Positions 26,120 through 44,874 of a stretch of 49,870 nt of DNA are shown one piece after another. A program made the position numbers and the translations under genes. The number at the start of each line of letters is the position of its first letter. Position 1 is the stretch's first letter. The notes below the pieces were generated by a model. It did no database searches. It was given only the letters and a program-made list of their open reading frames with translations, and was not told where the DNA came from. The stretch is from Gracilibacter sp. BRH_c7a (lineage in GTDB: Bacteria > Bacillota > Desulfitobacteriia > Desulfitobacteriales > Syntrophobotulaceae): contig LOEZ01000038.1 in the NCBI GenBank assembly GCA_001516055.1, positions 1 through 49,870 on the forward strand. The letters run 5' to 3'.

Positions 26120-26134
26120 AGAGGAGTTTTGTCC

Positions 26135-27109: not shown

Positions 27110-27144
27110 TACATACTGTCTCCTGATTGGAAAGGAGTAATCTT

Positions 27145-29301
27145 ATGGGAAAATCTATTCATATAAAGAGGACTAAAACACCAACTGTTTTACAGATGGA
27201 AGCTGTCGAATGTGGAGCAGCATCTTTAGCAATGGTTTTGGGTTATTATGGTAAGTTTGTTCCTCTTGAAGAGCTAAGAATAGCATGTGGTGTATCAAGG
27301 GATGGTAGTAAGGCAAGTAATCTTATCAAGGCAGCTAGAGCCTATGGTTTAAAAGCAAAGGGTTTTAAAAAGGAGCCAGATGGATTAAAAAAAATGCAGG
27401 TGCCAATGATTATTCATTGGAATTTCAATCATTTTTTAGTTGTTGAGGGATTCAAAGGTGGTAAAGTTTACCTTAACGACCCTGCTAATGGACCTAGAAT
27501 AGTATCAGAAGAGGAATTTGATCATTCCTTTACTGGAGTAGTCCTTACCTTTGAAGAAGGCGAGCTCTTTGAAAAAAGTGGCAGCAGGCCTAGTATTTTT
27601 ACAGGTTTAAAGAAGCGCTTGAAAGGCTCTGAGATGGCAATTGCTTTTACAATACTTCTTGGTCTGGCAATGGTAATTCCAGGATTAGTAATTCCTGTGT
27701 TCACTAAAATATATATAGATGACATATTACTTGCAAACAGGGATAATTGGCTCAGTCCATTACTGATAGGCATGGGTATTACTGCCTTGTTGAGGGGTAT
27801 AATGACCTGGCTTCAGCAGCATTATCTTTTGAGGCTTGATACAAAGGTTCGTGTAAGTACTTCTAGTCAGTTCTTGTGGCATATATTGAGACTTCCTGCA
27901 GAGTTTTTTTCCCAGCGTCAAAGTGGAGATATTTGCTCTCGTTTACAGAGTAATGACAGGGTGGCAACTCTCTTATCAGGACAGCTAGCCACTACTGCAA
28001 TTGATATAGTTATGATTGTATTCTACTTTGCTTTAATGACACATTATAATCTGACTCTAGCTCTAGTAGGTGTAGCTGCTGCGGCAATCAATGTTCTTTA
28101 TCTAAAGTATGCAGCAGCAAAAAGAGTTGACCAGAATCGAAAGCTTTTGCAGGACAGGGGTAAGTTGCAGGGAAATGCAATGTCAGGCTTGCAGGTGATT
28201 GAGACTTTAAAAGCCACAGGTTCTGAGGGAGATTTTTTCGCTAAATGGTCAGGAAGTCAAACAAAGGTCCTAAATACTGAACAAAAAATGGGTGTTACAA
28301 CACAAGTTCTTTCTGCAATTCCCGTATTTTTAACTGCTTTAACAAATGCTGTCGTTCTTGTATTGGGTGGTTTTTATATACTAAATGGTCAGTTGACTAT
28401 AGGAATGCTGGTTGCATTTCAGAGCCTAATGACAAGCTTCATGACACCTGTTAATAATCTGGTGAGTCTGGGTAGTCAGCTGCAGGAATTAGAAGGGGAT
28501 ATGAATCGTTTAGATGATGTTTTTAAATATCAGGTTGATGATGAGCATAATAATGAATTTGATGATGGATTTCAGGGAAAATTATCTGGAAATATTGAGC
28601 TAAAGAATCTTTGCTTTGGTTACAGTAAGCTAGAGCCAGCTCTTATAGATAATTTTAATCTTTCCTTGAAGCCAGGTTCAAGAGTTGCCCTAATTGGTGG
28701 ATCTGGATGTGGGAAATCTACCATTGCAAAGCTTATTTCTGGGATTAACACACCATGGTCAGGAAAAATACTCTTTGACGGTGTTGAAAAGAACAAGCTT
28801 CCTAAACGAGTTATCGCTAATTCATTGTCAGTTGTTGATCAGGATATATGTATGTTTAGTGGAACAATAAGAGATAATCTTACCCTATGGGATGAATGTA
28901 TCTCAGATTTTGAAGTAGTTCGGGCTGCAAAGGATGCATGCATACATGATGATATTACTGCTAGGGCAGGTGGATATGAGCACAAGCTTGATGAGGGTGG
29001 TAGTAACTTTAGTGGTGGTCAAAGACAAAGATTGGAAATTGCTAGAGCTCTAGTAACAAATCCAACTATTATGATTTTGGATGAAGCTACAAGCGCTTTA
29101 GATCCATTAACAGAAAAAACTGTAGACGAAAGCATAAGGCGTCGTGGATGCACCTGTATTATAGTTGCTCACAGGTTAAGTACAATTCGGGACTGTGATG
29201 AAATTATTGTTTTGGATAAGGGTAAGATCATTCAAAGAGGTACCCACGATGAGTTGCTTAGTGTTGAGGGCCATTATGCTAATCTTATTAGTGCAAGTTA
29301 G
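27145..29301 (+). CDS. NHLM-type peptide export ABC transporter with C39 leader peptidase
   Basis: About 718 residues: C39 cysteine peptidase at 10-145, with Gln17 and catalytic Cys23 (LQMEAVECGAASLAM), His in IIHWNFNHFLVVEG and Asp in NDPANGP; six membrane helices; and an ATPase with Walker A GGSGCGKST, signature NFSGGQRQRLEIARAL and Walker B IMILDEATSALD. These transporters cut precursor peptides after Gly-Gly and export the core in one step. The ATG at 27145 follows AAAGGAG; the TTG at 27127 is less likely. The two Gly-Gly candidates in this window (32706 and 38533) are the obvious substrates. Confidence 0.92.
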   Translation: MGKSIHIKRTKTPTVLQMEAVECGAASLAMVLGYYGKFVPLEELRIACGVSRDGSKASNLIKAARAYGLKAKGFKKEPDGLKKMQVPMIIHWNFNHFLVVEGFKGGKVYLNDPANGPRIVSEEEFDHSFTGVVLTFEEGELFEKSGSRPSIFTGLKKRLKGSEMAIAFTILLGLAMVIPGLVIPVFTKIYIDDILLANRDNWLSPLLIGMGITALLRGIMTWLQQHYLLRLDTKVRVSTSSQFLWHILRLPAEFFSQRQSGDICSRLQSNDRVATLLSGQLATTAIDIVMIVFYFALMTHYNLTLALVGVAAAAINVLYLKYAAAKRVDQNRKLLQDRGKLQGNAMSGLQVIETLKATGSEGDFFAKWSGSQTKVLNTEQKMGVTTQVLSAIPVFLTALTNAVVLVLGGFYILNGQLTIGMLVAFQSLMTSFMTPVNNLVSLGSQLQELEGDMNRLDDVFKYQVDDEHNNEFDDGFQGKLSGNIELKNLCFGYSKLEPALIDNFNLSLKPGSRVALIGGSGCGKSTIAKLISGINTPWSGKILFDGVEKNKLPKRVIANSLSVVDQDICMFSGTIRDNLTLWDECISDFEVVRAAKDACIHDDITARAGGYEHKLDEGGSNFSGGQRQRLEIARALVTNPTIMILDEATSALDPLTEKTVDESIRRRGCTCIIVAHRLSTIRDCDEIIVLDKGKIIQRGTHDELLSVEGHYANLISAS

Positions 29302-29326: not shown

Positions 29327-32047
29327 ATGAAGGACAGAGACCTATTCAATAAAGAGGGCACACCGATTATCGTCGAAGGAAATAAACCATTGTTATTAAT
29401 TAATCCTCAGAGTACATATATGATTGATAAGGGCAAGGTAGCAGTATTTTTGACAAAAATAAAAGATTCTAAGGCAATTGGCAGAAGACATTTTTTGTTT
29501 GAATTAAATAGAAATGATATTTTATTTGGTCTTAAACCCATAAGTGTTGAAACTGGTGAGTATGCTCTGCTGGTTTCAGGCTGGGTTGGCACCAGATTGC
29601 TGCAGCTTGACAAGTCCAAGGTTTTTAAAGCAATGACTACCGACAAAGATAATGTAGACATATTTTTTAAAACAGAGAACTGGATTAAAATTTTGTGGAA
29701 GAGCATTAAAAGGGCTGGTCTTCCTAAGGTGTTTTTGAAGCCTGATGAAATAGAAGCTGTTTCTATAAAGATTGACTCTAGTGAAAAATATATGGACTTA
29801 GATGGATATGAAAAATTTATCCTTGAAGGTGCTGTAGAAAAAACCCTTCAAAGTCTTGAATCAGAGAAGTCAAGGTTTAAAGATAAGGTAGTAAGTGATA
29901 TTGAGTTTATGGAAAATTCAATAAGAAAGCTTGCTAATGTCAATGAGAAAAGCAAGGAAATTGTACCTGATATAGTAACAGACGATCCACTTCTCACAGC
30001 TTGTGGAATAGTTGGAAAAGCTGCAAAAATAATAATCAAGCATCCACCTAAATCTGCATCAGGTAAGGTAAGCAGGGACCCTTTGGATGACATTGCTAGG
30101 GCATCTCAAATAAAGCATCGCCGGGTGGTCTTGAAGGGAGAGTGGTGGGCGCAGGATAGTGGGCCACTTTTGGCATACATGGAAGATGATGATAGACCAG
30201 TAGCCCTAGTTCCTGTTTCTCCTAATAAATATAGGCTCTATGATTCTGTAAACAAGACAAATATATTAGTAGATAATCATATTGCTGAAGGAATAAAGCC
30301 TTTTGCTACTGCCTTTTATAGACCATTTTCTAATGCAAAGATAAGTGCCAAGGATCTACTTATTTTTGGTATGGAAAGCACCTGGAAGCGTGACTTAGTT
30401 ACAGTATTGCTTTTGGGAATACTAGGTGGTCTGTTAGGCATGCTAATCCCAGTTGCAACAGGGATAATTTTTGATAGTGTTATTCCCGCAGGAGATCGCT
30501 TACAGCTGTTACAGATTGGTTTTTTTCTAGTAGCTAGTGCTTTGACTACTATGTTATTTCAACTTACAAGATCTTTCGCTGTACTGCGTGTAGAAGGAAA
30601 AATAGAAGGATCTGTTCAGGCCGCTGTCTGGGATAGGTTATTAGGTCTGCCAGTACCTTTTTTTAAGAACTATACTTCAGGTGAGCTGGCTATGAGGGCC
30701 ATGGGAATAAGTCAGATACGTCGGGCTCTTTCTGGGGTGACCATAACTACTCTTATCACAAGTATTTTTTCAATTTTTCAATTTATTTTATTGTTTTATT
30801 TCAGCTGGAAGCTGGCCATAATCGCTTTCGTCTTGGTTCTTTTTGCAATGCTTCTAACCCTAGTCTTAGGCTTTATCCAAACATCCAGGGAGCGACAAAT
30901 GGTTGAGTTTATAGATAAGATTGCTGGGATAACATTGGAGCTAATAAATGGTGTTAATAAGTTTCGTGCAGCAGGAGCAGAAAGCAGAGCTTTTTATCTC
31001 TGGTCAAAGGAATTTGGTAAGGGTGCAGTAATAAATATAAAAAAAGAAAAACTTGCAAATTTATTGACTACATTCAATTCTGTTTTTCCTGTATTTAGTG
31101 CAATGATTATATTCTTTGTTCTTCAACATTATAGTGATATAAATCTAGACCCAGGGAAGTTCATAGCATTTAATGCAGCATTTATTGCTTTTTCAACTAC
31201 AATGATAGCAATGTCTGAGGCTCTATTAACTATTAATAATATAATACCATTATATCAAAGATCAAAGCCAATCTTACAAAGCCTTCCCGAATATGATGAA
31301 GCCAAAGGTGATCCTGGAGAGCTTACCGGTGAAATAGAAGTAAGTCATCTTTCATTCAGATATAAGGAGGATGGCCCTCTAATTCTTAAGGATATTTCGC
31401 TTAGTATTAAGAAAGGTGAGTATGTTGCTTTAATAGGACCCTCAGGTAGTGGTAAATCCACACTTTTTAGAATTCTATTAGGCTTTGAAAAGCCTGAAAG
31501 TGGTCAAATTTTTTATAATGGTCATGATCTTAATAATATTGATATCAAGGCAGTTCGTAAACAGCTTGGTGTTGTTCTTCAAAATGGAAAACTCATGCAG
31601 GGGGATATTTATTCGAATATTATTGGATCCAACCCTTACCTGAACCTAGGGGATGCAATTGAGGCAAGCAAAAGGGTAGGGTTGTATGACGATATTAAAG
31701 ACATGCCCATGGGAATGCATACAGTAGTAAGTGATGGCGGCAGCACCTTATCTGGAGGACAAAGGCAACGAATGCTTATTGCTAGGGCAATTGTAAATAA
31801 GCCAAGAATATTATTCTTTGATGAGGCAACTAGTGCCCTGGACAATAAAACCCAAGCAATTGTTAGTGAAAGCCTTGATAATCTAAATGCTACACGGATA
31901 GTTATTGCCCATAGATTAAGTACAATTATAAATTGTCAAAGAATTATTGTCCTCGACCAGGGAAAGATTGTTGAGGTTGGTACATATGATGAACTTATGG
32001 ATAAAAAAGGAGTATTTTATGAACTTGCAAGAAGGCAGCTAGCGTAG
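29327..32047 (+). CDS. NHLM-type export ABC transporter, permease/ATPase subunit without peptidase
   Basis: A 906-residue second half of the NHLM pair. The first 340 residues lack the C39 Cys and include a cyclic-nucleotide-like beta region (LLINPQSTYMIDKGKVAVFL) and a degenerate peptidase-like part (VVLKGEWWAQDSGPLLAY). Six membrane helices follow, then the ATPase: GPSGSGKST, LSGGQRQRMLIARAIV and ILFFDEATSALD. In NHLM loci it forms a heterodimer with the peptidase transporter. The ATG has CAGGGAGG upstream, 25 bases after the preceding stop, so it is in the same operon. Confidence 0.9.
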   Translation: MKDRDLFNKEGTPIIVEGNKPLLLINPQSTYMIDKGKVAVFLTKIKDSKAIGRRHFLFELNRNDILFGLKPISVETGEYALLVSGWVGTRLLQLDKSKVFKAMTTDKDNVDIFFKTENWIKILWKSIKRAGLPKVFLKPDEIEAVSIKIDSSEKYMDLDGYEKFILEGAVEKTLQSLESEKSRFKDKVVSDIEFMENSIRKLANVNEKSKEIVPDIVTDDPLLTACGIVGKAAKIIIKHPPKSASGKVSRDPLDDIARASQIKHRRVVLKGEWWAQDSGPLLAYMEDDDRPVALVPVSPNKYRLYDSVNKTNILVDNHIAEGIKPFATAFYRPFSNAKISAKDLLIFGMESTWKRDLVTVLLLGILGGLLGMLIPVATGIIFDSVIPAGDRLQLLQIGFFLVASALTTMLFQLTRSFAVLRVEGKIEGSVQAAVWDRLLGLPVPFFKNYTSGELAMRAMGISQIRRALSGVTITTLITSIFSIFQFILLFYFSWKLAIIAFVLVLFAMLLTLVLGFIQTSRERQMVEFIDKIAGITLELINGVNKFRAAGAESRAFYLWSKEFGKGAVINIKKEKLANLLTTFNSVFPVFSAMIIFFVLQHYSDINLDPGKFIAFNAAFIAFSTTMIAMSEALLTINNIIPLYQRSKPILQSLPEYDEAKGDPGELTGEIEVSHLSFRYKEDGPLILKDISLSIKKGEYVALIGPSGSGKSTLFRILLGFEKPESGQIFYNGHDLNNIDIKAVRKQLGVVLQNGKLMQGDIYSNIIGSNPYLNLGDAIEASKRVGLYDDIKDMPMGMHTVVSDGGSTLSGGQRQRMLIARAIVNKPRILFFDEATSALDNKTQAIVSESLDNLNATRIVIAHRLSTIINCQRIIVLDQGKIVEVGTYDELMDKKGVFYELARRQLA

Positions 32048-32140: not shown

Positions 32141-32713
32141 ATGAAGCATATGGAGCTTTTTAATGAAGAATCACTAGTAGCTGATACTGTTGCTGATGCT
32201 GACGCTGATACTTTTGAAAAAATATATGATTATTATTTTCCCCGAATTTACAAATATATTAGATTTAGAGTGGGAGATCCTCACTTAACTGATGATTTAA
32301 CTAGCCAAGTTTTTGAGAATGCATTAAATAAGCTTGATAAATATAATTCCCAAAAGGGTAAGTTTGCAGCCTGGTTATTTGCTATAGCTCATAATACTGT
32401 TGTTGATTATTTCCGTAAAAAGAAAAATAATTTATGTACTTATGAAGATATTGAAAAACTGATAGACACTACATTTGATGTAGAGAAAGCTTGTATAGCT
32501 AAAGAATTTAGAACTAAGCTTTTTCAAGCCTTAAATAGTCTAAGTGAAAGGGAAAGAAATATTATTGGCTTGAAATTCTGGGCAGGTTTAACAAATCGCA
32601 AAATAGCTTCACTAATGGGTCTTAGTGAAAACAATATAGGTATAATTATATATCGGTCAATTATACGATTGAGAGTTGCTTTGCAGGATCTGGGGGTAAA
32701 TACCTATGAGTGA
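32141..32713 (+). CDS. ECF-like RNA polymerase sigma factor
   Basis: A 190-residue sigma-70-family protein with region 2 at about 20-90 (FEKIYDYYFPRIYKYIRFRV, then KFAAWLFAIAHNTVVDYFRK) and region 4 at about 130-180 (LSERERNIIGLKFWAGLTNR, then MGLSENNIGIIIYRSIIRL). Regions 1 and 3 are absent, as in the ECF group. It sits between the export and the biosynthesis genes and overlaps the next gene by eight bases, so it is likely a pathway-specific activator whose partner is the 137-residue protein. AAAGGAG lies upstream of the first ATG, and ATG at 32150 is an alternative. Confidence 0.87.
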   Translation: MKHMELFNEESLVADTVADADADTFEKIYDYYFPRIYKYIRFRVGDPHLTDDLTSQVFENALNKLDKYNSQKGKFAAWLFAIAHNTVVDYFRKKKNNLCTYEDIEKLIDTTFDVEKACIAKEFRTKLFQALNSLSERERNIIGLKFWAGLTNRKIASLMGLSENNIGIIIYRSIIRLRVALQDLGVNTYE

Positions 32714-33119
32714 AAAATATAAAGTGGAAAGCTTTCAAAAAGAATTAGATGCTTTACTCAAAGGTGTTTACAGGGTAGATCAGACTAGAGGTGGAGATGA
32801 AAATATACATCATAGAGGTGAATTGAAGCTTGTAGAAAAGATTTTAAAAGAAGATTTTAGTGATGAAAGTCAGCTAAAACAAGAAACAAAGAAAAGATTA
32901 CTGGACAAGCTTAATGCAAAAAAGTGCACTAGACAAGAACAAGACCACAGTTTTCTTGAGGAAGATGAACTTAGTGTGGAAGAACTGGATTATGCATCTG
33001 GTGGTCTTGCAATAAGAGAAGAGGGAGCTTGCTCAAAATGTGGCTGCAAAAGAAGTAGAGTATCGATAAATACAGCAAAATGCCCAGCTTGTGGACACTC
33101 TCGTGATGAGCATATGTAA
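32706..33119 (+). CDS. Leader-like protein with a double-glycine motif and Cys-rich tail (anti-sigma or second precursor)
   Basis: A 137-residue protein not recognised as a whole. Residues 1-80 are charged and helical (FQKELDALLKGVY), similar in feel to small sigma-partner proteins. Residues 88-100 read ELSVEELDYASGG, a typical Gly-Gly leader ending for C39 peptidases. The last 37 residues hold five cysteines (109, 112, 114, 126, 129) as CSKCGCK and KCPACGH plus His131, resembling a zinc ribbon. Overlap with the sigma gene (ATGAGTGA) implies co-translation. It could be an anti-sigma factor, a precursor peptide, or both: a regulator whose C-terminal piece is cut and exported. No direct proof. 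Confidence 0.55.
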   Translation: MSEKYKVESFQKELDALLKGVYRVDQTRGGDENIHHRGELKLVEKILKEDFSDESQLKQETKKRLLDKLNAKKCTRQEQDHSFLEEDELSVEELDYASGGLAIREEGACSKCGCKRSRVSINTAKCPACGHSRDEHM

Positions 33120-33168: not shown

Positions 33169-33912
33169 ATGCTGCTAAAGGGGAAGGTTGCCATAGTTAC
33201 TGGAGCTACTGGGGGTTTAGGAAAGGCTATTATTCATAAGCTGTGCAAAGAAGGTGCAAGAGTAATCGGTATATATCGGAGTCAAAGCTTAAGCGCAGAA
33301 AAATTGCAGGCAGTATTAGCTGAAAGTGGCTTTGAGGTATCTTTTTATAAAGGCTCTGTTTATGATGAAGTATTCGTTGCTAATACAGTAAATAAGATTA
33401 TAGAAAAATATAATAGGATAGATATACTTGTTAATAATGCAGGAATTACCAGAGATGCTTTTCTACCACAGATGGCAAGCAAGGATTGGAAGGATGTTTT
33501 TGAAACGAATTTTGAAGGAGCATATATTTGTACTAGAGAAGTGTTGCCCCATATGCTTAAAAGAGAGTTTGGTAGAGTTATAAATATTATTTCTATATCA
33601 GGGATTATAGGTAAAGAGGCTCAAACAAATTACTGTGCATCAAAGGGTGCCGTCATTGGACTTACACGTTTGTTATCCAGAAAGTATTCTCAGAAAGGTA
33701 TCTACTTCAACGCAATAGCACCAGGATTAATTGAAACAGATATGATTGACCATTTGCCTGATAATAAAAGGACAGGAATTATAAATTCGACAAATCTAAA
33801 ACGGGTAGGTAAAGCAGAAGAAGTAGCTGGGGCTGTTCTATTTCTATCTAGTAGTTTGTCTGATTACTGCAATAATACTATTTTAACAATTGACGGTGGG
33901 ATGCTAAGGTAA
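33169..33912 (+). CDS. 3-oxoacyl-ACP reductase (FabG-type SDR)
   Basis: A 247-residue short-chain dehydrogenase with the NADP-binding loop TGATGGLG (11-18), the NNAG motif (89-92), a catalytic Ser in IISISG (142 or 144), Tyr155 and Lys159 (NYCASKG). The C-terminus ILTIDGGM is also FabG-like. It reduces beta-ketoacyl-ACP to beta-hydroxyacyl-ACP. It is the first dedicated chain-building gene after the sigma/leader pair and lies 50 bases upstream of the ketosynthase fusion. GGAAGTGA precedes the ATG. Intact. Confidence 0.85.
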   Translation: MLLKGKVAIVTGATGGLGKAIIHKLCKEGARVIGIYRSQSLSAEKLQAVLAESGFEVSFYKGSVYDEVFVANTVNKIIEKYNRIDILVNNAGITRDAFLPQMASKDWKDVFETNFEGAYICTREVLPHMLKREFGRVINIISISGIIGKEAQTNYCASKGAVIGLTRLLSRKYSQKGIYFNAIAPGLIETDMIDHLPDNKRTGIINSTNLKRVGKAEEVAGAVLFLSSSLSDYCNNTILTIDGGMLR

Positions 33913-33962: not shown

Positions 33963-36221
33963 TTGACTAGACGAAAAAGGATTGTAGTAACAGGAGTAGG
34001 AATATTTTCATCCATGGGACAAGATCAATACCAGGTCCTTAGTAATATGAAAAGAAATATTACTGGTATTGGCAACATTGCTAATTTTCCCACTAATCAG
34101 ATGATCAGTAACTTTGGAGCAGAAATCAAGGAGTATGTTCCAGAACCTGATACAACTAAGTATAATATGTGTACTCAATTTGGAATACGAGCTGCTAAGG
34201 AAGCACTCAAAGACAGTAAACTAGATATAACTTCCCAAAATGCTGATAAATTAGCTCTTTGCTTTGGGACATGTAGTGGAGGGCTAACGGAACTTGAAAA
34301 AAGAAGAAAGGTAAAAAATCTGGACTATGATGCTACTCTTTACTTTCCCTGGTTTCAGCAAGGAGATTGCATAGCGGAACATTTAGGAATAAATGGACCG
34401 GTAATTTCTAATGTAACTGCTTGTGTAGCTAGTGGTCATTCCCTGATTGTTGGGTGTGAAATACTTTCTCAGGGAAAGTTGGAGGCTGTTTTGGTAGGTG
34501 GTTCTGATACAATATCTGAGTCAGTCTATGCTGGTTTTAATAGCTTACAAGCATTAAGTGGACAACCCTGTGCACCCTTTGGTTACCCTAGTGGATTAAG
34601 CTTGGGGGAAGGTGCAGCATTTATTGTTCTAGAGTCTCTAGAAAGAGCTTTAGAAAGAAAAGCATTTATCTATGCCGAAATATGTGGCTTTGGATTAGAC
34701 CAGGATGCCCATCACATAACAGCTCCACATCCTGGTGGAGATGGAGTCGCTCGGACTGTTACTTCAGCCCTTAAACAGGCAAAGGTAAAGCCTGAGCAAA
34801 TTGGTTACATAAATGTACATGGAACTGGTACAGAAGCAAATGATGCATGTGAGCTAACTGGACTAAGAAAGGCACTAGGGGATGAGTTATTTTCTAAAAT
34901 ACCTTTGAATTCAAGTAAAGCATACTTTGGCCATACCCTAGGACCAGCTGCAGTTATTGAAATAGTTAGCACCTTAATTGCTATTAAGGATGGAAAGCTG
35001 CCTGCTACATTACATACTACGAATTTGAGGGAAGGCTGCCAGGAAGCAAACCATATTTTAAATAATATGCCTGAAGGAAATCCACAATATTTTTTATGCA
35101 ATAACTCGGCTTTTGGGGGACATAATTCTTCAGTATTATTTAAAAGTTGGAAGGAAAAGCAAGGTAGCTTGAAAGAGGAATATAAAACTGAAGAGGATTT
35201 TCCGCCTAAAAGAGTTGGTATTTTTGGAATTTCGATGGCAAATCAATTTGGATGTATATCTGGCTCAGCTGATACTGGGATAAGTAATAAACAACACATG
35301 GATATAGAGAAAGCTAGGATAGAGACAAAGAAATATATTGGTTCTCTTTATTCAAGGAGAATGAATTATATAACCCAGTACTGTATAGCTGCAGCTCACC
35401 TATCCATAAAGGATGCCAATCTTGAAGTAAATCAGGATAATAATACTGATATTGGCTTAGTATTCGGTAGCACCTATGGTGCTTTAGATAGATTTAGTAG
35501 TTACCTTAAGGGGATTTTTGATAATGGTGTAACCCATGCAAGTCCATTATATTTTCCAGACACTACAATTAATACCATACCTGGAAGGGCTGCAATAAAA
35601 CTAGGAATAAAGGGCTATGGTACTACCATATCAACTGGTGGAAATGAAGGTGTTTTAGCCTCTCATATTGCTTATCAGCTAATAAGAAGTGGTTATCAGA
35701 GCTTTTGCCTTGTGGGAGCGGGGGATGAGATATGTGACTTTAGCAATGAGGTGAGTAGTATCTTAGGCTATGATAAGAGCAAATATCCACTAACAGAGGG
35801 AAGCTCTTTTATGGTCCTGGGAAGCCTTGAAGGCGTAGCCGTTAAAAATACAAGGTGTTATGGGGAAATAAAAGGTTTTGGTTGTGGGTTTGGTAGTGAC
35901 AATTATCATGAAGCTATAGCTAAGGCTTTAGATGAGGCAAGTCTGCATGCAGATAATATAGACTTTGTATTTTATAATGATGAAGGATTTGAAGAAAAAG
36001 GATTGTATCAGAAAAAAGTTCTGGAAGGTCTTTTCACAAATAGAAGAATTCCTATTAAAACCTTCAATGATCTATTTGGCTATGCGTTCTCTGTAAGCTC
36101 CATGTATCATATTTACCAAGCAGCATTATGGCTCTTTAATAACAAGATATATCAAAATGGATTAGTAGTTAGCTCTTCACTTAATGGTGGAAACGTGGCC
36201 ATTGCAATTTCTAGAGTCTAG
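33963..36221 (+). CDS. Fused beta-ketoacyl synthase / chain-length-factor-like protein
   Basis: A 752-residue protein with two thiolase-fold halves. The first (1-400) is a KAS II/FabF-type ketosynthase with a full triad: Cys154 (VTACVASGHS), His286 (NVHGTGTEAND) and His324 (YFGHTLGPAA). The second (415-752) keeps the fold (IGLVFGSTYGALDRF, TTISTGGNEGVLAS) but has Gly where the active Cys should be, like the chain-length factors of type II polyketide systems. The TTG start at 33963 is backed by AAAGGGGGG. A KS-CLF heterodimer, here fused, elongates a chain on ACP and sets its length. No acyltransferase domain is present; malonyl units are presumably from FabD. Confidence 0.82.
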   Translation: MTRRKRIVVTGVGIFSSMGQDQYQVLSNMKRNITGIGNIANFPTNQMISNFGAEIKEYVPEPDTTKYNMCTQFGIRAAKEALKDSKLDITSQNADKLALCFGTCSGGLTELEKRRKVKNLDYDATLYFPWFQQGDCIAEHLGINGPVISNVTACVASGHSLIVGCEILSQGKLEAVLVGGSDTISESVYAGFNSLQALSGQPCAPFGYPSGLSLGEGAAFIVLESLERALERKAFIYAEICGFGLDQDAHHITAPHPGGDGVARTVTSALKQAKVKPEQIGYINVHGTGTEANDACELTGLRKALGDELFSKIPLNSSKAYFGHTLGPAAVIEIVSTLIAIKDGKLPATLHTTNLREGCQEANHILNNMPEGNPQYFLCNNSAFGGHNSSVLFKSWKEKQGSLKEEYKTEEDFPPKRVGIFGISMANQFGCISGSADTGISNKQHMDIEKARIETKKYIGSLYSRRMNYITQYCIAAAHLSIKDANLEVNQDNNTDIGLVFGSTYGALDRFSSYLKGIFDNGVTHASPLYFPDTTINTIPGRAAIKLGIKGYGTTISTGGNEGVLASHIAYQLIRSGYQSFCLVGAGDEICDFSNEVSSILGYDKSKYPLTEGSSFMVLGSLEGVAVKNTRCYGEIKGFGCGFGSDNYHEAIAKALDEASLHADNIDFVFYNDEGFEEKGLYQKKVLEGLFTNRRIPIKTFNDLFGYAFSVSSMYHIYQAALWLFNNKIYQNGLVVSSSLNGGNVAIAISRV

Positions 36222-36236: not shown

Positions 36237-36986
36237 ATGCAAGAAAAAGCTCAAAAAAAAATATTACTATCGGAAGCTCATCAAAAAGAAAATCTGAATA
36301 TAGCACACTACCTATTAAAGGATGGCCACCTTGTAGCTCTACTTTCAGATGAAAGCAAGCTAGTCAATGATTTTATCGAGGGCCTTGATCCAGAATACAA
36401 ACATAATTGTTTTAGGCAGTGCTTGGACCTCTATACGGAAGAAAAGATAACTGGAGTTGTTGATAGGGTTACAGAAAAATTAAAAGGCCTTGATATTTTA
36501 ATAAATGGACTGCCAGGAGGGGCAAATGAAGCTGTTCTAGTGGAAACTTCACCTGAAACTTTTGGCACGGATATAACCTCTGATTTTAATAAAGTCTTTC
36601 TATTAAACAGAGAAATTGTGCGCCATATGATAAGAGAAAAAGCAGGTAATATAATATTTTTGCTAATCGACGATGTTCTTGATTTTGCAGATTACCCTGT
36701 GAGCCCTGTTCATAATCATGGAAGAATCGCTATGATGAAAAGTATGGCAAAAGAATTGGCTCCATTTAAAATTAGGGTAAATTCCCTAACCTTTGGAATT
36801 TATAATCGTGGTTTTAGTCCTTCTGAAAAACGCGAGATGCGTAGGAAGTTAGAGTTTTGTACTTTAAAGCCTCCAATACCTACATGGGAGGATTTACTTC
36901 CAGCACTCGATGCACTTATATATCCTTCTTTTAAATACATGACAGGACAGAACTACCCCGCATGTATTGGAACTAGCAACACTTAA
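36237..36986 (+). CDS. SDR-fold protein lacking the catalytic Tyr/Lys
   Basis: A 249-residue protein with an SDR fold: LDILINGLPGGANE corresponds to the NNAG strand, FKIRVNSLTFGIYNRG to the strand after the active site, and the N-terminus to the dinucleotide site. But IDDVLDFADYPVSPVHNHGR replaces the region S...Y-x-x-x-K, so Tyr and Lys are absent, and the glycine-rich loop is also poor. It is probably non-catalytic, perhaps a partner of the ketoreductase or ketosynthase. It follows the ketosynthase fusion by 15 bases after GGAGGGGAAG. Related pseudo-enzymes in fatty-acid-like clusters are uncommon. Confidence 0.65.
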   Translation: MQEKAQKKILLSEAHQKENLNIAHYLLKDGHLVALLSDESKLVNDFIEGLDPEYKHNCFRQCLDLYTEEKITGVVDRVTEKLKGLDILINGLPGGANEAVLVETSPETFGTDITSDFNKVFLLNREIVRHMIREKAGNIIFLLIDDVLDFADYPVSPVHNHGRIAMMKSMAKELAPFKIRVNSLTFGIYNRGFSPSEKREMRRKLEFCTLKPPIPTWEDLLPALDALIYPSFKYMTGQNYPACIGTSNT

Positions 36987-37109: not shown

Positions 37110-37574
37110 ATGGCTAAGGATTTAAGAGCTGATGAAAAAAATATAATTTTTTCTAAAAGGCCTCATCAATTATTAAAAACAGCACCTCCCTTTTTATTTA
37201 TTGATAAAGTGCATGAATTTGATAGTGAGCAAAAGATATTGCTGTGCTCAAAGCAGGTTGGTTACAATGAACCTTATCTAGCAGGTCATTTTCCTGGAGA
37301 GCCTATAGTACCTGGAGTTCTACTAATTGAGATGGCTGCCCAGGCAAGCGCACTTCTTTTGATAGCCCTGAACAATACAGGCTTTGAAGAGGGTTATCTG
37401 GTTCGCACCAAAGATTTTAGCTTCTATAATGCGGCTATACCTGGCAGTTGTTTGATGATAAAAGTGCAATTACAGGAGCATACTGGCAACTTTCTTACAA
37501 CAAAAGCTATAATAACTTTCAAGGGTGAAAAAAAGAAAGCTGCGAAAGGAGAGGTGGTGCTGTTCCTACGTTGA
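37110..37574 (+). CDS. 3-hydroxyacyl-ACP dehydratase (FabZ-like hot-dog protein)
   Basis: A 154-residue hot-dog-fold protein. The helix segment YLAGHFPGEPIVPGVLLIEM carries catalytic His60 and Glu74, the FabZ pair, and PPFLFIDKV is the family N-terminal strand. It would remove water from beta-hydroxyacyl-ACP to give a trans-2-enoyl chain. The usual FabZ E-A-M-A-Q is E-M-A-A-Q here. It follows the REP-like units and overlaps the next start by four bases (TTGA). With two ketoreductases and no enoyl reductase seen, repeated cycles could yield a polyene. Confidence 0.83.
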   Translation: MAKDLRADEKNIIFSKRPHQLLKTAPPFLFIDKVHEFDSEQKILLCSKQVGYNEPYLAGHFPGEPIVPGVLLIEMAAQASALLLIALNNTGFEEGYLVRTKDFSFYNAAIPGSCLMIKVQLQEHTGNFLTTKAIITFKGEKKKAAKGEVVLFLR

Positions 37575-38527
37575 CTAAAATTGAGCGAAAGATAGGAGCA
37601 ACTAGAGTAACCATAGATTTGCCCCTATGGATTGACACCATTAATTGCTTTTTGTTTAAAGGTGAAGACGGCTGGGATATTGTTGATGCTGGCACTTACA
37701 CACCTAAAGCAATGGAAAAATGGAGACAGACCTTTCGCGAGTTTGATATAAACCCGTTGGATGTAAAAAAAATCATTATTACTCATGACCATGTAGACCA
37801 TTTTGGGGCAGCAGGTGAATTGCACAAGTTGACCCAAGCACCAGTTAAAATGGTACATAAAGATAATACTTTGCTAAACTGGAAGGATTGGTTAAAGAAA
37901 ATTCTTCATGAGGAGACTGTATTTCACTACTTCGGTCTCCCAGAAGAACTAGAAAGAAAAATTATCAGCGAAAAAATTGGTCAGTTCCAAAGCTGGGCTC
38001 CTAGTATTCCAAAAATAGAGGATCTAAGAGGCAGCAATACAATCCAGCTGGGATCTGAGCAGTATAGCCTATTAAAGTTTTCGGGGCATTGTGATGAACA
38101 GGTATGTTTTTATAATCAGGATATGAAAGTGCTCTTTGCGGGGGATGTTCTGGTAACGCCTAATCATATTAATATGGCCAGTCAAGACCCATTGGGCTTG
38201 TACTTTGAAACATTAGAGCTTCTCAAAAATATGGAGATTTCCTATCTAATTCCATCTCATGGCAAACCCTTTGGTAGAGTTGGAATTCGGATAGGGCTTA
38301 TATCAGAATACAGAAAACAACAGCTTATAGATTTAACAGAGCATTTGTCACAAGCAACTACTGTATATCAAGCATATCTTTTCCTTTTAACCAGGGGGGC
38401 ATTAACTGATTTATTTTTTGGAGTAACTGAGGTTTATTATTTTTTAGAACACCTGGTTAAAACTGGTCATTTAAAAAAAGAGACCAGAAAGGATTGCTTA
38501 TATTATATGAATTATGAAAGGAGGTGA
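37571..38527 (+). CDS. Metallo-beta-lactamase-fold hydrolase, possible thioesterase
   Basis: A 318-residue MBL-fold protein with the metal site THDHVDHFGAAG (His72, His74, Asp76, His77), later His in FSGHCDEQVCFY, Asp in LFAGDVL and His in IPSHGKPFG. The C-terminal 90 residues are helical, as in glyoxalase-II-like and LACTB2-like members. In some polyketide pathways MBL-fold proteins act as thioesterases that free chains from ACP, so editing or release is a reasonable guess. The TTG start overlaps the dehydratase stop; AAAGGAGAGG lies about 18 bases upstream. The stop lies within the ribosome site of the precursor gene. Confidence 0.78.
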   Translation: MTKIERKIGATRVTIDLPLWIDTINCFLFKGEDGWDIVDAGTYTPKAMEKWRQTFREFDINPLDVKKIIITHDHVDHFGAAGELHKLTQAPVKMVHKDNTLLNWKDWLKKILHEETVFHYFGLPEELERKIISEKIGQFQSWAPSIPKIEDLRGSNTIQLGSEQYSLLKFSGHCDEQVCFYNQDMKVLFAGDVLVTPNHINMASQDPLGLYFETLELLKNMEISYLIPSHGKPFGRVGIRIGLISEYRKQQLIDLTEHLSQATTVYQAYLFLLTRGALTDLFFGVTEVYYFLEHLVKTGHLKKETRKDCLYYMNYERR

Positions 38528-38532
38528 AAAAG

Positions 38533-38799
38533 ATGAAATGGACTAAGGAAGAAATTAATAGTGCACAGGCAAAGGTTGAGGCGTTAGCAACTAAAGATAA
38601 TGAATTTAGAAAGCTATGCCTAAGTGATCCTCATGCAGCAATTAAACAAGCAACAGGTCAGGATGTAGAACCTAGTTACAAGCTTAAATTTGTAGAAAAT
38701 GAAGGTGGATACGATACTTTTGTATTACCTGATTTCCAAGGATCAGGAGATGAGCTTTCAGATGCTGATTTGGATACTGTAGCAGGTGGATCAAAGTAA
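38533..38799 (+). CDS. NHLP-type precursor peptide whose core after Gly-Gly is only Ser-Lys
   Basis: An 88-residue protein with a nitrile-hydratase-like leader (NHLP, TOMM-propeptide-like): FRKLCLSDPHAAIKQATGQ near 25-43, LKFVENEGGYDTFVLPDF at 51-68, then ELSDADLDTVAGG. The Gly-Gly is 85-86 and only Ser87-Lys88 follow before TAA. ATG 38533 is chosen because AAAGGAGG lies eight bases upstream; the GTG at 38524 overlaps that site. Neighbours are a GNAT just downstream and C39/NHLM exporters upstream. I infer that Lys88 (or Ser87) is acylated and the piece after Gly-Gly released. It is a credible RiPP precursor, but so short a core is unusual; a scaffold role is an alternative. Confidence 0.8.
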   Translation: MKWTKEEINSAQAKVEALATKDNEFRKLCLSDPHAAIKQATGQDVEPSYKLKFVENEGGYDTFVLPDFQGSGDELSDADLDTVAGGSK

Positions 38800-38814
38800 G
38801 TTAAGGTATTTGTT

Positions 38815-38846
38815 AAAGCAAGAGGTATTACGTTGCCTCTTGCTTT
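38815..38846 (+). terminator. Hairpin just after the precursor gene (attenuator or mRNA stabiliser)
   Basis: AAAGCAAGAGG and CCTCTTGCTTT form a perfect eleven-base stem with a ten-base loop, but only ACTTCC follows instead of a T-run. It probably reduces transcription of later genes only partly, or protects the precursor mRNA. Confidence 0.65.
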
Positions 38847-38885
38847 ACTTCCTTATCGTTCTATCTGATAGGAGGAGTTTGTTAG

Positions 38886-39770: not shown

Positions 39771-39808
39771 TTTATAAATTAATATATATTATAGGAGGTG
39801 TAACCATT

Positions 39809-40096
39809 ATGATTGATATAGCAAGGGTTAAGGCGGTTATTAAAGAGGATATTCTCATTAAACGCTTAGAGTTAGAGGATATTACTCCAGAGGAAATTGA
39901 AGATAATACACCTTTATTTGGTGAAGGCTTGGGGTTAGATTCTGTGGAGGCCCTCGATGTTGTGGCTGGAATAGAACAGATCTTTGGTGTAAAGCTCCAA
40001 GGAATATCACCTGAAGAATTTAAAAAGCACTTATATTCTGTAGAAACCCTAGCTCAATTTGTAGTTCATAAGGGTGACAATCAGGAGGCAAGCTGA
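39809..40096 (+). CDS. Acyl carrier protein
   Basis: A 95-residue ACP. The phosphopantetheine attachment site is Ser45 in GLGLDSVEALDVVAGIEQ, with acidic helix II following and PLFGEGLG before it. It shuttles the growing or finished acyl chain as a thioester. AGGAGG lies ten bases upstream. It is set between the GNAT and a phosphopantetheinyl transferase, which suggests it is the donor for the GNAT. About 15 residues longer than a minimal ACP. Confidence 0.87.
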   Translation: MIDIARVKAVIKEDILIKRLELEDITPEEIEDNTPLFGEGLGLDSVEALDVVAGIEQIFGVKLQGISPEEFKKHLYSVETLAQFVVHKGDNQEAS

Positions 40097-40103
40097 AAGT
40101 AAA

Positions 40104-40748
40104 ATGCTAAAAATCTTTGCTTTAAAGCACAGCACAAAACTTGACAGCTTGGTATTTCAGGAAATTCTTTCTTATCTAGATAAGGGTGAACAAGAAAGAA
40201 TATTAAAATTTTATAGGTGGCAGGATGCAGAAAGAAGCTTGCTGGGAAACTTAATCATACGGGCAACAATTTGTGATTTGTTTCAGGTTAAGAATTCTGA
40301 TTTTGAGGTTTTCCGCAATGAAATGGGAAAACCTTATATAAATAATATGCCACAAGTATTTTTTAATATTTCTCATTCTGGTCATTGGATTATGGGAGCT
40401 TTTGATAGCTTTCCTGTAGGTATTGATATAGAGCAAATTAAACCGTTGGACCTTAATATGGGCAAATCAATACTTGCTGCAAATGATTATGAAGAGATGT
40501 TAAAAATGAAAGCACCAGATCGGCTAAAGCATTTTTATAAGTGCTGGACATTGAGTGAGAGCTATCAAAAAATGCTTGGAAGCGGAGTGACACTTCCATT
40601 ATCATCAACTAATAATCTGTATGATTCAGCTTTTTTCACCAACCATATTATTGATGATTATATATTATCAATATGTTCAAGCCATGGGTTATTTTCGGAA
40701 CGTATTATTTATACCGATACTGAGCAATTACTTAATCTTATTAGATAA
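40104..40748 (+). CDS. Sfp-type 4'-phosphopantetheinyl transferase, divergent
   Basis: About 214 residues. VFFNISHSGHWIMGAF and VGIDIEQIKPLD are the Sfp-type CoA and Mg sites, and CWTLSESYQKMLGSGV is the third motif, in which the usual W-T-x-K-E has Ser for Lys. It transfers phosphopantetheine from CoA to apo-ACP. ATG at 40104 gives the family N-terminus, but the AGGAGG site (40083-40088) is 15 bases away. A GTG at 40074 would overlap the ACP gene end. The second such gene at 44362 has an intact K-E motif, so this one may be specialised or weakened. Confidence 0.78.
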   Translation: MLKIFALKHSTKLDSLVFQEILSYLDKGEQERILKFYRWQDAERSLLGNLIIRATICDLFQVKNSDFEVFRNEMGKPYINNMPQVFFNISHSGHWIMGAFDSFPVGIDIEQIKPLDLNMGKSILAANDYEEMLKMKAPDRLKHFYKCWTLSESYQKMLGSGVTLPLSSTNNLYDSAFFTNHIIDDYILSICSSHGLFSERIIYTDTEQLLNLIR

Positions 40749-40861
40749 ACATAGACTGGCCATGCATTGTGGAATATGGCTCCAGACTCCCATGATTATG
40801 GTAAAATATGAATGGATTTAATACACAAGACACAAACGGAGCTGGCAGGGAGGCAATGATT

Positions 40862-41080
40862 ATGACAAATTTCGAGAAGATTGCGTTACTAGAAGAGATG
40901 ATGGAATTAGGCGAGGGTTCACTTTCTGAAGAAACAGTATTGGCAGATATTGAAGAATGGGATTCAATGGCTGCTCTTTCTCTAATATTTCTAATGAGTG
41001 AGAACTTTGGTAAAGAATTAAAAGGACCGCAAATTAGAAAACTTAAAACAATAAAAGATATTATAGACATTATGGTGTAA
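40862..41080 (+). CDS. Acyl-carrier-protein-like protein
   Basis: A 72-residue carrier protein beginning MTNFEKIALLEEMMELGEGS. The carrier Ser is Ser35 in DIEEWDSMAALS, where the usual D-S-L is D-S-M, followed by helix II LIFLMSENFGKEL and a TIKDIIDIMV end. ATG 40862 is chosen because GGGAGG lies eight bases upstream; the frame is open from 40808. It begins the second set of genes (to 44874) and precedes the KAS III by 19 bases. Likely holds the starter or a first intermediate. Confidence 0.75.
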   Translation: MTNFEKIALLEEMMELGEGSLSEETVLADIEEWDSMAALSLIFLMSENFGKELKGPQIRKLKTIKDIIDIMV

Positions 41081-41099
41081 GAGCCAACTGGAGGTTTTC

Positions 41100-42161
41100 A
41101 TGTCTAGAGCAAAGTTTAACAATGCAAAAATAAAGGGTATATGCTGTGCTGTGCCTAACAACCCAATTTCTATAGAAGAAATGGTAAAACCTTATTTTGA
41201 TGAAAATTACGTTAAAAAGACGATAAATATTATAGGGGCCAAGCAACTGTACTATGCCAAAGAAGGCCAAACTACGTCTGATCTTGGATATGCTGCTGCA
41301 GAAAAATTAATTGCAGACATAGGTTGGAAGAAACAAAGTATAGATGGACTTATTTTCATTTCTCAAACACCTGATTATATCTTGCCTGCTACCTCTTGCA
41401 TATTACAGGATAGACTTAGATTACCAATAACAACTTTGACATTAGATATCAATTTAGGTTGTTCAGCTTACATATACGGCTTATTTTTAGCTAAACAGTT
41501 TATATCAGCTAGAACGTGTAAAAGGATTATATTAATAGTAGGTGACACTATCAGTAGAAAGGTATCTCCTAAGGATAAGTCGTCAGTTTTAATATTTGGT
41601 GATGGTGTGTCTGCTACAGCGGTAGAATTTTCTGATAAAAATAGTTTAAGTTCATTTATATTAAAAACCGATGGATCAGGTGCAACTAGTTTAATCATAC
41701 CTGCTGGTTTAAATAGATATCCAAGCACGAAAGAAACTAGAAGCGAAAAGAAGGACCAAGATGGTAATATCAGAACTGACGAACATATTCATATGGATGG
41801 AATGGAAATCTTTGGTTTTTCACTTAGGGAAGTACCCAAAATATTAGAAGAAGTAATTGAATTAAATGGTTGGACTTCAATGGATGTAGACAAATTACTT
41901 CTCCACCAAGCGAATAATTTTATGTTAAAACACATAGCACAAAAGGCTAAAATTCCTATGGATAAAGTGCCTCTAAATATGGATAGCTTCGGAAATACTG
42001 GTGGTGCAACTATCCCATTTTTAATTTGTGATAAATTGAAAGATGAAATTAAAATAAATAAATTAAGGGTAGTAATGTCTGGTTTCGGTGTCGGACTGTC
42101 CTGGGGGGCTGCCGCGATGGAATTATCAGATGTATTTTGTTCAGAAATAATATACGTCTAG
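41100..42161 (+). CDS. 3-oxoacyl-ACP synthase III (KAS III / FabH-like)
   Basis: A 353-residue condensing enzyme of the KAS III type, with Cys121 (DINLGCSAYIYGL), His269 (LLLHQANNFM) and Asn299 (SFGNTGGATIP) forming the FabH triad. FabH-like enzymes make the first condensation from an acyl-CoA or acyl-ACP starter and malonyl-ACP. A C-terminal GFGVGLSWGA is also typical. AACTGGAGG lies upstream. In this gene set the starter could come from the AMP-ligase (42426) and a carrier (40862 or 42205). It has no obvious defect. Confidence 0.88.
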   Translation: MSRAKFNNAKIKGICCAVPNNPISIEEMVKPYFDENYVKKTINIIGAKQLYYAKEGQTTSDLGYAAAEKLIADIGWKKQSIDGLIFISQTPDYILPATSCILQDRLRLPITTLTLDINLGCSAYIYGLFLAKQFISARTCKRIILIVGDTISRKVSPKDKSSVLIFGDGVSATAVEFSDKNSLSSFILKTDGSGATSLIIPAGLNRYPSTKETRSEKKDQDGNIRTDEHIHMDGMEIFGFSLREVPKILEEVIELNGWTSMDVDKLLLHQANNFMLKHIAQKAKIPMDKVPLNMDSFGNTGGATIPFLICDKLKDEIKINKLRVVMSGFGVGLSWGAAAMELSDVFCSEIIYV

Positions 42162-42204
42162 TCTAGAGGCAAAAATTTATATATTACTTTAAGTGGAGGA
42201 AAAC

Positions 42205-42429
42205 ATGAAAAACAATCTATTAGAATTAATTAATGAAATATTGGCTAATTCAGATAGGGAACCGATACGTACATTAGATGAAGAAGTATCCTTAAGACAT
42301 GATATTGGGTTTGACTCCATAGATTTAGCGGTTTTTACAGTCAACATTGAAAACATATTTGAAGTCGATATCTTTGAGACAGGCAATATAGATACTATTA
42401 AGGATGTATTAGAAAGGCTAAACAAATGA
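42205..42429 (+). CDS. Acyl carrier protein, second of the downstream set
   Basis: A 74-residue ACP with Ser38 in RHDIGFDSIDLAVFTVNIEN. ATG 42205 has GTGGAGG upstream; a GTG at 42193 in the same frame is part of that site. It ends at 42429, overlapping the AMP-ligase start by four bases (ATGA), which suggests the ligase loads this carrier. A start segment MKNNLLELINEILANS is helical as expected. Confidence 0.87.
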   Translation: MKNNLLELINEILANSDREPIRTLDEEVSLRHDIGFDSIDLAVFTVNIENIFEVDIFETGNIDTIKDVLERLNK

Positions 42430-43649
42430 AAGTATTTATAATTGATATTTTAAGAGAGTATAACATTTCTTATACTGAATTCATAAATGAAATGAACACC
42501 ACAGATTTAAAGAAATATATTTACTGCAAAGATCCAAAGGATGTATTTCTTCACATAGCAAAATCCATTGCTTTTGGTAAAGAGGTAGTGCTGCTGGATG
42601 GAGACTGGACGATTACTGAGCTTGAATATCAAGGATTAGACCATGATGAAATCAAGAAAGTCTATTCTATAAATACCAAAATCAATGATATAGAAGATTT
42701 ATATAGTAAAATTGATGAAAACAAGAATAATTGGAGTGTTTCTTTATTTACCTCCGGCACGACAGGAAAACCAAAGAAGGTTAAGCATAGTTTTGCAAGT
42801 GCTTCGCGAGCTGTACGGCAAAGCACAAAATATGCAGATAATGTATGGCTGTTTAGTTATAACCCTACCCATTTTGCAGGACTTCAAGTTTTTCTACAAG
42901 CTTTTTTGAATAGAAACACAGTAGTTATCGGTAATGATCCAAGCAAGTATAATATAGATCTCCTGCTAAAAAATTATAATATAACACATGTTTCTGCTAC
43001 ACCAACATTTTATAGATTTATTTTGCCTACTCTTAATAGTGAATATAATTCTATAAAAAACATCACTTTAGGTGGTGAAAAAATGGATGAAAATCTTAAG
43101 TCATTATTATCAAAGAAGTTTCCTTCTGCGAAGGTGACTAATGTATACGCATCTACTGAAGCAGGAAACCTGTTCGCCTCAGATGGCGTGTACTTTCATA
43201 TAGAAGATTATATGGCTGATATGATAAAAATTGAAGATGGTGAATTACTTATTCATCGTAAAATTATGGGAGAATTCAACTTTGATGATAATAAACAGTG
43301 GTATAAAACAGGGGATATTGTAGAGTATTTAGATGGGAAAATAAGATTTCTTCAAAGAGAAAGTGACTTTATTAATGTTGGCGGATACATAGTTAATCCT
43401 ATAGAAGTCGAGGAAGAGATATTAAAGATAGAAAATATAATGGATGTTCTCGTTTATGGTATGGATAACAAGATATTAGGCAAAATCTTAGCTGCAGATG
43501 TTGTGGTAGATTCCAAGGAAGAGAATATAAATAAGAAGATATTTATCTATTTAAATAATAAGCTTCAGAAATGGAAAATACCTAGAATTATCAATATCAA
43601 AGAAACGATTAAAAAAACGAATACTGGAAAAAAGGTGAGAAAAGGATGA
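42426..43649 (+). CDS. AMP-dependent acyl/aryl-acid ligase (ANL family, short form)
   Basis: A 407-residue adenylate-forming enzyme with P-loop-like SLFTSGTTGKPKKVKHSF, ATPTFYRF, VYASTEAGNL, the hinge YKTGDI, FINVGGYIVNPIEVEE and Lys in KKTNTGKKV near the end. It activates a carboxylic acid as AMP ester and passes it to a thiol of CoA or ACP. It is about 100 residues shorter than usual because the N-terminal lobe is reduced. Overlap with the ACP gene and with the reductase that follows (ATGA) marks a tightly coupled operon. The acid substrate is unknown. Confidence 0.82.
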   Translation: MKVFIIDILREYNISYTEFINEMNTTDLKKYIYCKDPKDVFLHIAKSIAFGKEVVLLDGDWTITELEYQGLDHDEIKKVYSINTKINDIEDLYSKIDENKNNWSVSLFTSGTTGKPKKVKHSFASASRAVRQSTKYADNVWLFSYNPTHFAGLQVFLQAFLNRNTVVIGNDPSKYNIDLLLKNYNITHVSATPTFYRFILPTLNSEYNSIKNITLGGEKMDENLKSLLSKKFPSAKVTNVYASTEAGNLFASDGVYFHIEDYMADMIKIEDGELLIHRKIMGEFNFDDNKQWYKTGDIVEYLDGKIRFLQRESDFINVGGYIVNPIEVEEEILKIENIMDVLVYGMDNKILGKILAADVVVDSKEENINKKIFIYLNNKLQKWKIPRIINIKETIKKTNTGKKVRKG

Positions 43650-44362
43650 AAACAGTTTTGGTTACTGGAACATCTGGAGATTTAGGGTACGCTATTGCCA
43701 AGACCTTGCTTGCAAAATCATACAGGGTTATAGGACTCAGCAGAAAAGTAAATAGTTATATTTTTGTTTTGGAGTCAAATCCAAATTATTTACACAAAGA
43801 GTTTGACTTAATTCAAACAGACCAGATTAAAGACCTTATATTGGATTTTCAAAAAAGTGGGGAAAAGTTTCACGGGTTAGTTAATAATGCCGCAATTGCA
43901 TATGATGAAATAGTAACTAACGCTAATCTTAACCAACTAAATACCTCTTTTAGTATAAATGTATTTTCACCTATAATGCTGACGAAGTATATTATTAGGA
44001 ATATGCTTTTAAATAAGATTAAAGGTAGTATAGTTCATATTTCTTCTGTATCGGCTCATACAGGATACAAAGGCCTAAGCATGTATGCATCTACAAAAGG
44101 TGCATTGGAAGCATTTTCAAAGAATACAGCAAGAGAATGGGGAGAGATAGGTATACGGTCGAATTGTGTAGTTCCAGGCTTCATGGAAACCAAGATGAGC
44201 GGTGCATTAACATCAAATCAAAAGAATAGGATATATAAACGCACTTCCATGAAAAAAGATACAAGCATAGAATCTGTTGCTGAAACAGTAGCCTTTTTAA
44301 TATCTGACAAATCAATTTCAATAACGGGTCAAAATATACATGTGGATAATGGTACAATTTAA
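43646..44362 (+). CDS. Second 3-oxoacyl-ACP reductase (SDR)
   Basis: A 238-residue SDR with TGTSGDLG near the N-terminus (dinucleotide site), NNAAIAYDE, Ser in HISSVSA, Tyr147 and Lys151 (MYASTKGALEAF), and C-terminal ITGQNIHVDNG. FabG-like. It likely reduces the beta-keto product of the KAS III. Overlaps the ligase stop by four bases, and its own stop shares a base with the next start. It differs clearly from the 33169 copy, so the two sets were not made by recent duplication. Confidence 0.83.
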   Translation: MKTVLVTGTSGDLGYAIAKTLLAKSYRVIGLSRKVNSYIFVLESNPNYLHKEFDLIQTDQIKDLILDFQKSGEKFHGLVNNAAIAYDEIVTNANLNQLNTSFSINVFSPIMLTKYIIRNMLLNKIKGSIVHISSVSAHTGYKGLSMYASTKGALEAFSKNTAREWGEIGIRSNCVVPGFMETKMSGALTSNQKNRIYKRTSMKKDTSIESVAETVAFLISDKSISITGQNIHVDNGTI

Positions 44363-44874
44363 TGATAAAACTGTACCTTGCAGAGATAGACAATGCAAAA
44401 TCTTATTCAAAGAGCTTTGCCAAAAATATTTTAGGGGAAAGCTTGAATGTGGATGAAAAGAGCCTCGTGGTACAAGAGAATGCATTTGGCAAGCCTCATC
44501 TAAGAGATTATACGGATGTACACTATAATATATCTCACACAAAAGGTGCTATAGTTTGCGCTGTGACTGATAAACCGGTTGGAGTTGACATTGAGAGAAT
44601 AAGAAAAGTTAACGAGCGTATTGTAGAGCGTTATTTTACGCGAAATGAGCAAAATTATATTTTTTCTAGGATAGAGAACCAAGATGAAAGATTCACAGAA
44701 ATATGGACTAAGAAAGAAGCTTATGTTAAATGGCGGGGCAAGGGCATGACAATTCCTTTTGGTTCGTTTGATGTGCTTCAAAAAGCAATACATTCTTTTT
44801 CGTATGGAATATATTACATTTCGATATATAAAAAAAATGGTGCAGTTGATGTCTGCACCAAGATTGTTCAATAA
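44362..44874 (+). CDS. Sfp-type 4'-phosphopantetheinyl transferase
   Basis: A 170-residue enzyme with YNISHTKGAIVCAV, VGVDIERIRKV and WTKKEAYVKWRGKGM, all three Sfp motifs intact. It starts in the TAATG overlap with the reductase gene and is the last gene of the series. It would activate the two carriers at 40862 and 42205, perhaps also the one at 39809. Shorter than Sfp itself (about 220), as in compact two-domain forms. Confidence 0.85.
   Translation: MIKLYLAEIDNAKSYSKSFAKNILGESLNVDEKSLVVQENAFGKPHLRDYTDVHYNISHTKGAIVCAVTDKPVGVDIERIRKVNERIVERYFTRNEQNYIFSRIENQDERFTEIWTKKEAYVKWRGKGMTIPFGSFDVLQKAIHSFSYGIYYISIYKKNGAVDVCTKIVQ

Follow-up and report, generated by a model that had tools for sequence, protein, structure and literature searches.

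A putative lipidated RiPP cluster with a two-residue Ser-Lys core in Gracilibacter sp. BRH_c7a

Results

An operon of NHLM export genes, chain-building enzymes, and an NHLP-like precursor

We analyzed positions 1–49,870 of contig LOEZ01000038.1 of Gracilibacter sp. BRH_c7a, forward strand (hereafter the window, meaning this whole stretch of 49,870 nucleotides). From 24953 to 40748, that is, from a substrate-binding protein gene through a phosphopantetheinyl transferase (PPTase) gene, all genes run in one direction (Table 1). The same order is found in three other genomes as far as their contigs reach; one of these syntenic loci (L007) came from the genome collection and two (G474 and G483) from whole-genome searches. 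Window proteins are 54–84% identical to their counterparts in these relatives, except for the zinc-ribbon protein (about 50%). Outside this region, positions 49295–49870 hold two identical 285-base repeats that extend to the contig end and read in frame with a surface protein that looks exported; the repeats may be real or an assembly effect.

Table 1. Features of the window, in order of position
Feature	Position	Strand	Evidence
Substrate-binding protein of the branched-chain amino acid type; opens the conserved operon	24953..26119	+	60–65% identical in G474, G483
NHLM HlyD-like secretion protein	26129..27109	+	TIGR03794, 368.3 bits (cut-off 156.2)
NHLM ABC transporter 1 with N-terminal peptidase	27127..29301	+	TIGR03796, 1139.8 bits (cut-off 853.3)
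NHLM ABC transporter 2	29327..32047	+	TIGR03797, 979.6 bits (cut-off 709.4)
ECF-type sigma factor	32141..32713	+	58–59% identical in relatives
Zinc-ribbon protein with leader-like ELSVEELDYASGG motif	32706..33119	+	Conserved in G474, G483
FabG-like ketoreductase	33169..33912	+	Pfam adh_short, E 2.2e-56
Fused ketosynthase and chain-length-factor-like protein	33963..36221	+	Pfam; FabF-like first half
SDR-like protein without YxxxK motif	36237..36986	+	Pfam; motif read by eye
FabA/FabZ-like dehydratase	37110..37574	+	Pfam FabA, E 9.3e-17
Metallo-beta-lactamase-fold hydrolase	37571..38527	+	Pfam Lactamase_B, E 3.4e-25
NHLP-like precursor: leader of 86 aa with VAGG at its end, then the Ser-Lys core	38533..38799	+	Translation, TIGR03793, seven homologues
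Core codons TCA AAG (Ser-Lys); stop TAA, 38797–38799	38791..38796	+	Sequence
Stem-loop between precursor and GNAT genes, terminator/attenuator-like	38814..38847	+	14-pair stem
Tandem GNAT N-acyltransferase, 294 aa	38886..39770	+	Pfam Acetyltransf_1, two stretches
Acyl carrier protein (ACP)	39809..40096	+	Pfam PP-binding; 73–80% identical in relatives
Phosphopantetheinyl transferase (PPTase)	40107..40748	+	Pfam
Second acyl gene set: ACP-like, KAS III, ACP, AMP-ligase, SDR, second PPTase	40808..44874	+	Pfam

Within the export and regulatory part of the operon, the HlyD-like protein has lost, in frame, more than 100 aa of its coiled-coil hairpin, as judged from alignment with G474 and G483. The zinc-ribbon protein gene overlaps that of the ECF-type sigma factor, and its product has no match in Pfam or NCBIfam. 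A leader-like EL..EELD..GG motif occurs in it, with residues −7 and −12 hydrophobic, and is also present in two relatives (L036 10927–11331 and L038 10640–11047). The zinc-ribbon protein may be a regulator that the GG-peptidase transporter of this operon cuts or exports.

In PDB entry 9s5h, chains B and C are partners, and each is the best match of one half of the fused ketosynthase protein. By our reading of the alignment, the first half retains Cys-His-His (TAC) and the second half has lost these residues (STGG). An active ketosynthase (KS) half, a chain-length-factor (CLF)-like half without the active Cys, a ketoreductase, a dehydratase, and an ACP are thus all present, as in type II PKS/FAS (KS-CLF) systems. 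An enoyl reductase was not evident in the window cluster and could come from primary metabolism. That the chain builders are dedicated hints at a special acyl chain, which may be unsaturated because such a reductase is not evident. The SDR-fold protein without a YxxxK motif is kept in all relatives and may serve the chain builders as a structural partner. No lanthionine synthetase was found among the listed frames between 24953 and 44874.

The gene content of this region differs from that of the relatives. In all three of them, an A-PCP-TE gene lies between the ACP and PPTase genes (L007 6745–9243; the starts of L037 and L039), and it is absent from the window. No orthologue of it was found elsewhere in the window genome: the top hit has 41% identity and spans query residues 5–594 only. 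Because this gene is absent and the HlyD hairpin is lost, the predicted pathway of the window genome is changed relative to its relatives. Orthologues of the second acyl gene set were not found in any of the three syntenic clusters.

A precursor that ends two residues after Gly-Gly

The precursor gene translates to MKWTKEEIN...GDELSDADLDTVAGGSK*, an 88-aa product that ends DLDTVAGG-SK-stop. The initial annotation had described a frame ending TVAGGSK-stop with only Ser-Lys past the Gly-Gly, which the translation confirms, and its numbering of Gly86 and Lys88 is correct; the lysine is position 2 after GG and the final residue of the precursor. The ATG at 38533 follows AAAGGAGGTGAAAAAG and lies behind a GGAGG. 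This strong ribosome-binding site shares sequence with the 3′ end of the metallo-hydrolase gene, and a GTG at 38524 is an alternative start. Against TIGR03793 (NHLP leader) the precursor aligns to model positions 6–77 of 77 with an E value of 1.1e-11 and a score of 44.4 bits, which is below the curated cut-off of 50.9 bits (a whole-protein score). The L007 precursors also fall below this cut-off. We call the window precursor "NHLP-like" because of this score; it is the sole TIGR03793-type match in its genome. The gene is well beyond a chance resemblance, as seven precursors from three other genomes share its leader (see below). Its leader ends in Gly-Gly and NHLM export genes are nearby, as is expected in an NHLP context. 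Double-glycine peptidases have been described to act on leaders with hydrophobic residues at −4/−7/−12 (PMC10885120), and V-4, L-7, and L-12 of the window leader match this rule. Between the precursor stop and the GNAT start (38797–38885), the folding z-score is −5.06. The stem-loop found there would be expected where a precursor must exceed its enzymes in amount.

The tandem GNAT gene starts 86 bases past the precursor stop, and a tandem GNAT that adjoins a precursor of the NHLP or Nif11 kind is characteristic of selidamide clusters. GNATs that act with such precursors and acylate Lys or Orn side chains are established from the selidamides (PMC9505594, PMC13060382). P-loop motifs are present in both halves of the window GNAT (RRRGIA and QLMGYA); NpuN has been reported without a clear P-loop motif in its C-terminal half. 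The window GNAT is 61–66% identical to the GNATs that adjoin the homologous precursors. A distant GNAT relative on a plasmid in Mesorhizobium has a precursor of the Nif11 type and radical SAM genes of the RiPP kind beside it.

Homologous precursors have seven-residue cores with a conserved lysine

We aligned the window precursor with seven homologues from the three other genomes, which have two to three precursors in tandem, compared with one in the window genome. The homologous leaders are 72–74% identical to the window leader and align without gaps to the GG. All seven cores are exactly seven residues long and fall into two types, GTKWDIG/GTKHKIG (type one) and HSAPKNF/HSADKSF/GSSTKSF (type two, or type B). 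Hence, a two-residue core is not supported as a trait of the family. The initial annotation had regarded longer, variable cores in homologues as evidence against its interpretation: the cores are indeed longer, at seven residues, and are not variable, in that they are of two conserved types. A lysine is present in 8/8 related cores (the window and its seven homologues) at a distance of 2, 3, or 5 from GG. In the relatives it occupies position 3 or 5, and GTKHKIG has both. The first core residue varies (G, H, or S), and these short cores contain no Cys.

Other NHLP and Nif11 precursors met in the genomes sampled have 8–48 residues past the GG, which puts the window family at the short end of the range and the window itself at the extreme. 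Short predicted cores with a lysine are the rule in this family, and a core of two residues is unique to the window genome among the precursors compared. Since close relatives have seven residues at this place, always with lysine, the Ser-Lys core looks like an extreme shortening within a little-known kind of ribosomal lipopeptide. The DNA beside the stop, too short a stretch for proof, suggests that SK is derived from a type B core (S..K.. then TAA). Other searched genomes of the same genus and family had no such GNAT or close precursor, viral contigs held no relative of either, a plasmid search with a precursor as query returned just one distant NHLP gene, and a second draw of genomes from the phylum gave no further close relatives.

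The short core is probably real rather than an artifact

We considered whether a longer core is hidden by a frame shift or by stop read-through, and rejected this possibility. Computed single-base insertions in the core give cores of at most four residues, single-base deletions there give an unrelated 35-residue tail or none, and alteration of the stop gives an unrelated 25-residue tail; no one-base change yields a seven-residue core like those of the relatives. The earlier failure to see a coding frame shift after GG is therefore upheld. A sequencing or assembly error, such as collapsed tandem precursor copies, is also very unlikely. The genome is in 98 contigs, and short-read assembly could merge tandem copies of the kind seen two to three times in relatives, but a merger would leave one copy with its genuine 3′ end, a seven-residue core is out of reach of a one-base change, and the frame and its flanks are clean.

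Another possibility is that the gene is a relic, in which an ancestral heptapeptide core was recently lost or truncated and the product is no longer made or relevant. Several differences from the relatives speak for it, namely the seven-residue cores in all seven homologues, the single precursor where relatives have two to three, the loss of the HlyD hairpin, and the absence of the A-PCP-TE gene, for which the closest sequence elsewhere in this genome belongs to a different NRPS (a stretch with 41% identity). A recent loss would also explain why the leader still appears constrained. The leader, however, is ungapped and its divergence is not accelerated: its dN/dS is 0.13–0.16 against all homologues, compared with 0.05–0.17 among the homologues themselves. 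Its identity to the relatives (72–74%) exceeds that of the GNAT (61–66%), the metallo-hydrolase (63–68%), and the ketosynthase (67–71%), so the leader cannot have been free of constraint for long. Moreover, the remaining operon genes are all intact and conserved, the stem-loop is still present 3′ of the precursor gene, the core was lost in frame with Lys retained, and the stop cannot be derived from a core like those of the relatives by a simple nonsense mutation or frame shift. We consider a relic doubtful, yet it is the main rival to an acyl-Ser-Lys product. Together, the constrained, ungapped leader and the failure of one-base explanations favor a real, shortened core.

Discussion

A proposed route to an acylated Ser-Lys dipeptide

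We suggest, with a rough probability of 0.5, that the window cluster directs a lipidated-RiPP pathway with selidamide-like logic and its own discrete fatty-acid/polyketide enzymes, and that its product is acyl-Ser-Lys. In this proposal, the ketosynthase/chain-length-factor-like pair, ketoreductase, dehydratase, and ACP would make an acyl chain, which the tandem GNAT would move to the lysine of the very short core while the leader is still attached. The NHLM peptidase-transporter would then cleave after Gly-Gly and export the lipopeptide. Cleavage at this site would free acyl-Ser-Lys, given that the leader matches the −4/−7/−12 rule. The relatives' products would be acylated heptapeptides of two types; in the window genome, the core would have shrunk in frame to Ser-Lys and the product would consequently be an acylated dipeptide.

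Transfer to the lysine is our best reading of the acylation, because the Lys is conserved, the core is short, and the GNAT is adjacent. In the main alternative chemistry, the leader is removed first and the acyl chain then joins the N-terminal amine, as reported for lipolanthines, goadvionins, and lipoavitides, to give an N-acyl dipeptide with a free Lys. GNAT-made N-terminal acyl groups are known on lipidated RiPPs (PMC13060382), and distant type I PKS clusters with GNAT and NHLP genes (G482 and G047) have cores that all start with Ala, not every one of which has a Lys. In the close family, however, it is the lysine that is constant (8/8 cores) and the first residue that varies, and we judge N-terminal acylation improbable.

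For lysine acylation, it is a possible, if tentative, reading that the pathway works with Ser-Lys as its whole ribosomal part, the 86-residue leader carrying one lysine for a dedicated fatty or polyene chain. With the leader as carrier of one acylated lysine, the product would in effect be a lipid whose encoded head group is two residues long. The earlier proposal of a lysine-carrying leader gains from the adjoining lipid gene set and tandem GNAT, the upstream GG-peptidase exporter, and the invariant Lys; conservation of the Ser-Lys core itself did not hold. If true, the system would show how short a ribosomal sequence can suffice for a RiPP, and the leader would become a carrier protein for lipid chemistry. 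The cores SK, GTKWDIG, GTKHKIG, HSAPKNF, HSADKSF, and GSSTKSF, on leaders closely related to one another, would suit a test of leader-plus-lysine recognition by the GNAT.

Comparison with known systems

The selidamides phaeornamide, kamptornamide, and nostolysamides, in which Lys or Orn is acylated, share with the window a long NHLP or Nif11 leader and a GNAT adjoining the precursor, and the phaeornamide cluster also has export genes (phaT1/T2/T3) (PMC9505594, PMC13060382). The window family differs in having no lanthionine enzyme, cores of two or seven residues, and dedicated chain-building genes, whereas known selidamides are lanthipeptides with LanM whose cores are longer and whose acyl chains come from primary metabolism. 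Lipoavitides, goadvionins, and lipolanthines likewise combine a RiPP with a fatty-acid or polyketide chain through an acyltransferase, and lipoavitides reportedly have dedicated non-modular fatty acid synthases. Unlike the product proposed for the window, all three are N-terminally acylated class III lanthipeptides, with other leaders and transporters (PMC13060382). Discrete ketosynthase/chain-length-factor enzymes coupled to NHLP-like precursors were not found in the largely open-access literature searched. We suggest that the window system represents a novel form of lipidated RiPP, its product being putative.

With respect to core length, PQQ is a product that derives from only two residues of its precursor. 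In mycofactocin, too, just two precursor residues enter the product, as a Val-Tyr cross-link (PMC5682303). Both differ from the window in their radical SAM chemistry and have neither a GG exporter nor a lipid.

The distant G047 and G482 clusters resemble the window in an NHLP leader (about 50% identical), a GNAT (25–27%), a PPTase, and a substrate-binding protein, and an NHLM exporter was seen in G482. They differ in that a type I PKS replaces the discrete enzymes and the cores are 15–32 residues long. Type I PKS, GNAT, PPTase, and NHLP-like precursors apparently make up another polyketide-linked RiPP group. The cores at L008 (G047) and L040/L041 (G482), such as AAQDITKPVGFQSNFGW, ATTNPPGYRPSSFGY, and AAQNPNPTRPPNYTKAFGW, all end in Gly-Trp or Gly-Tyr.
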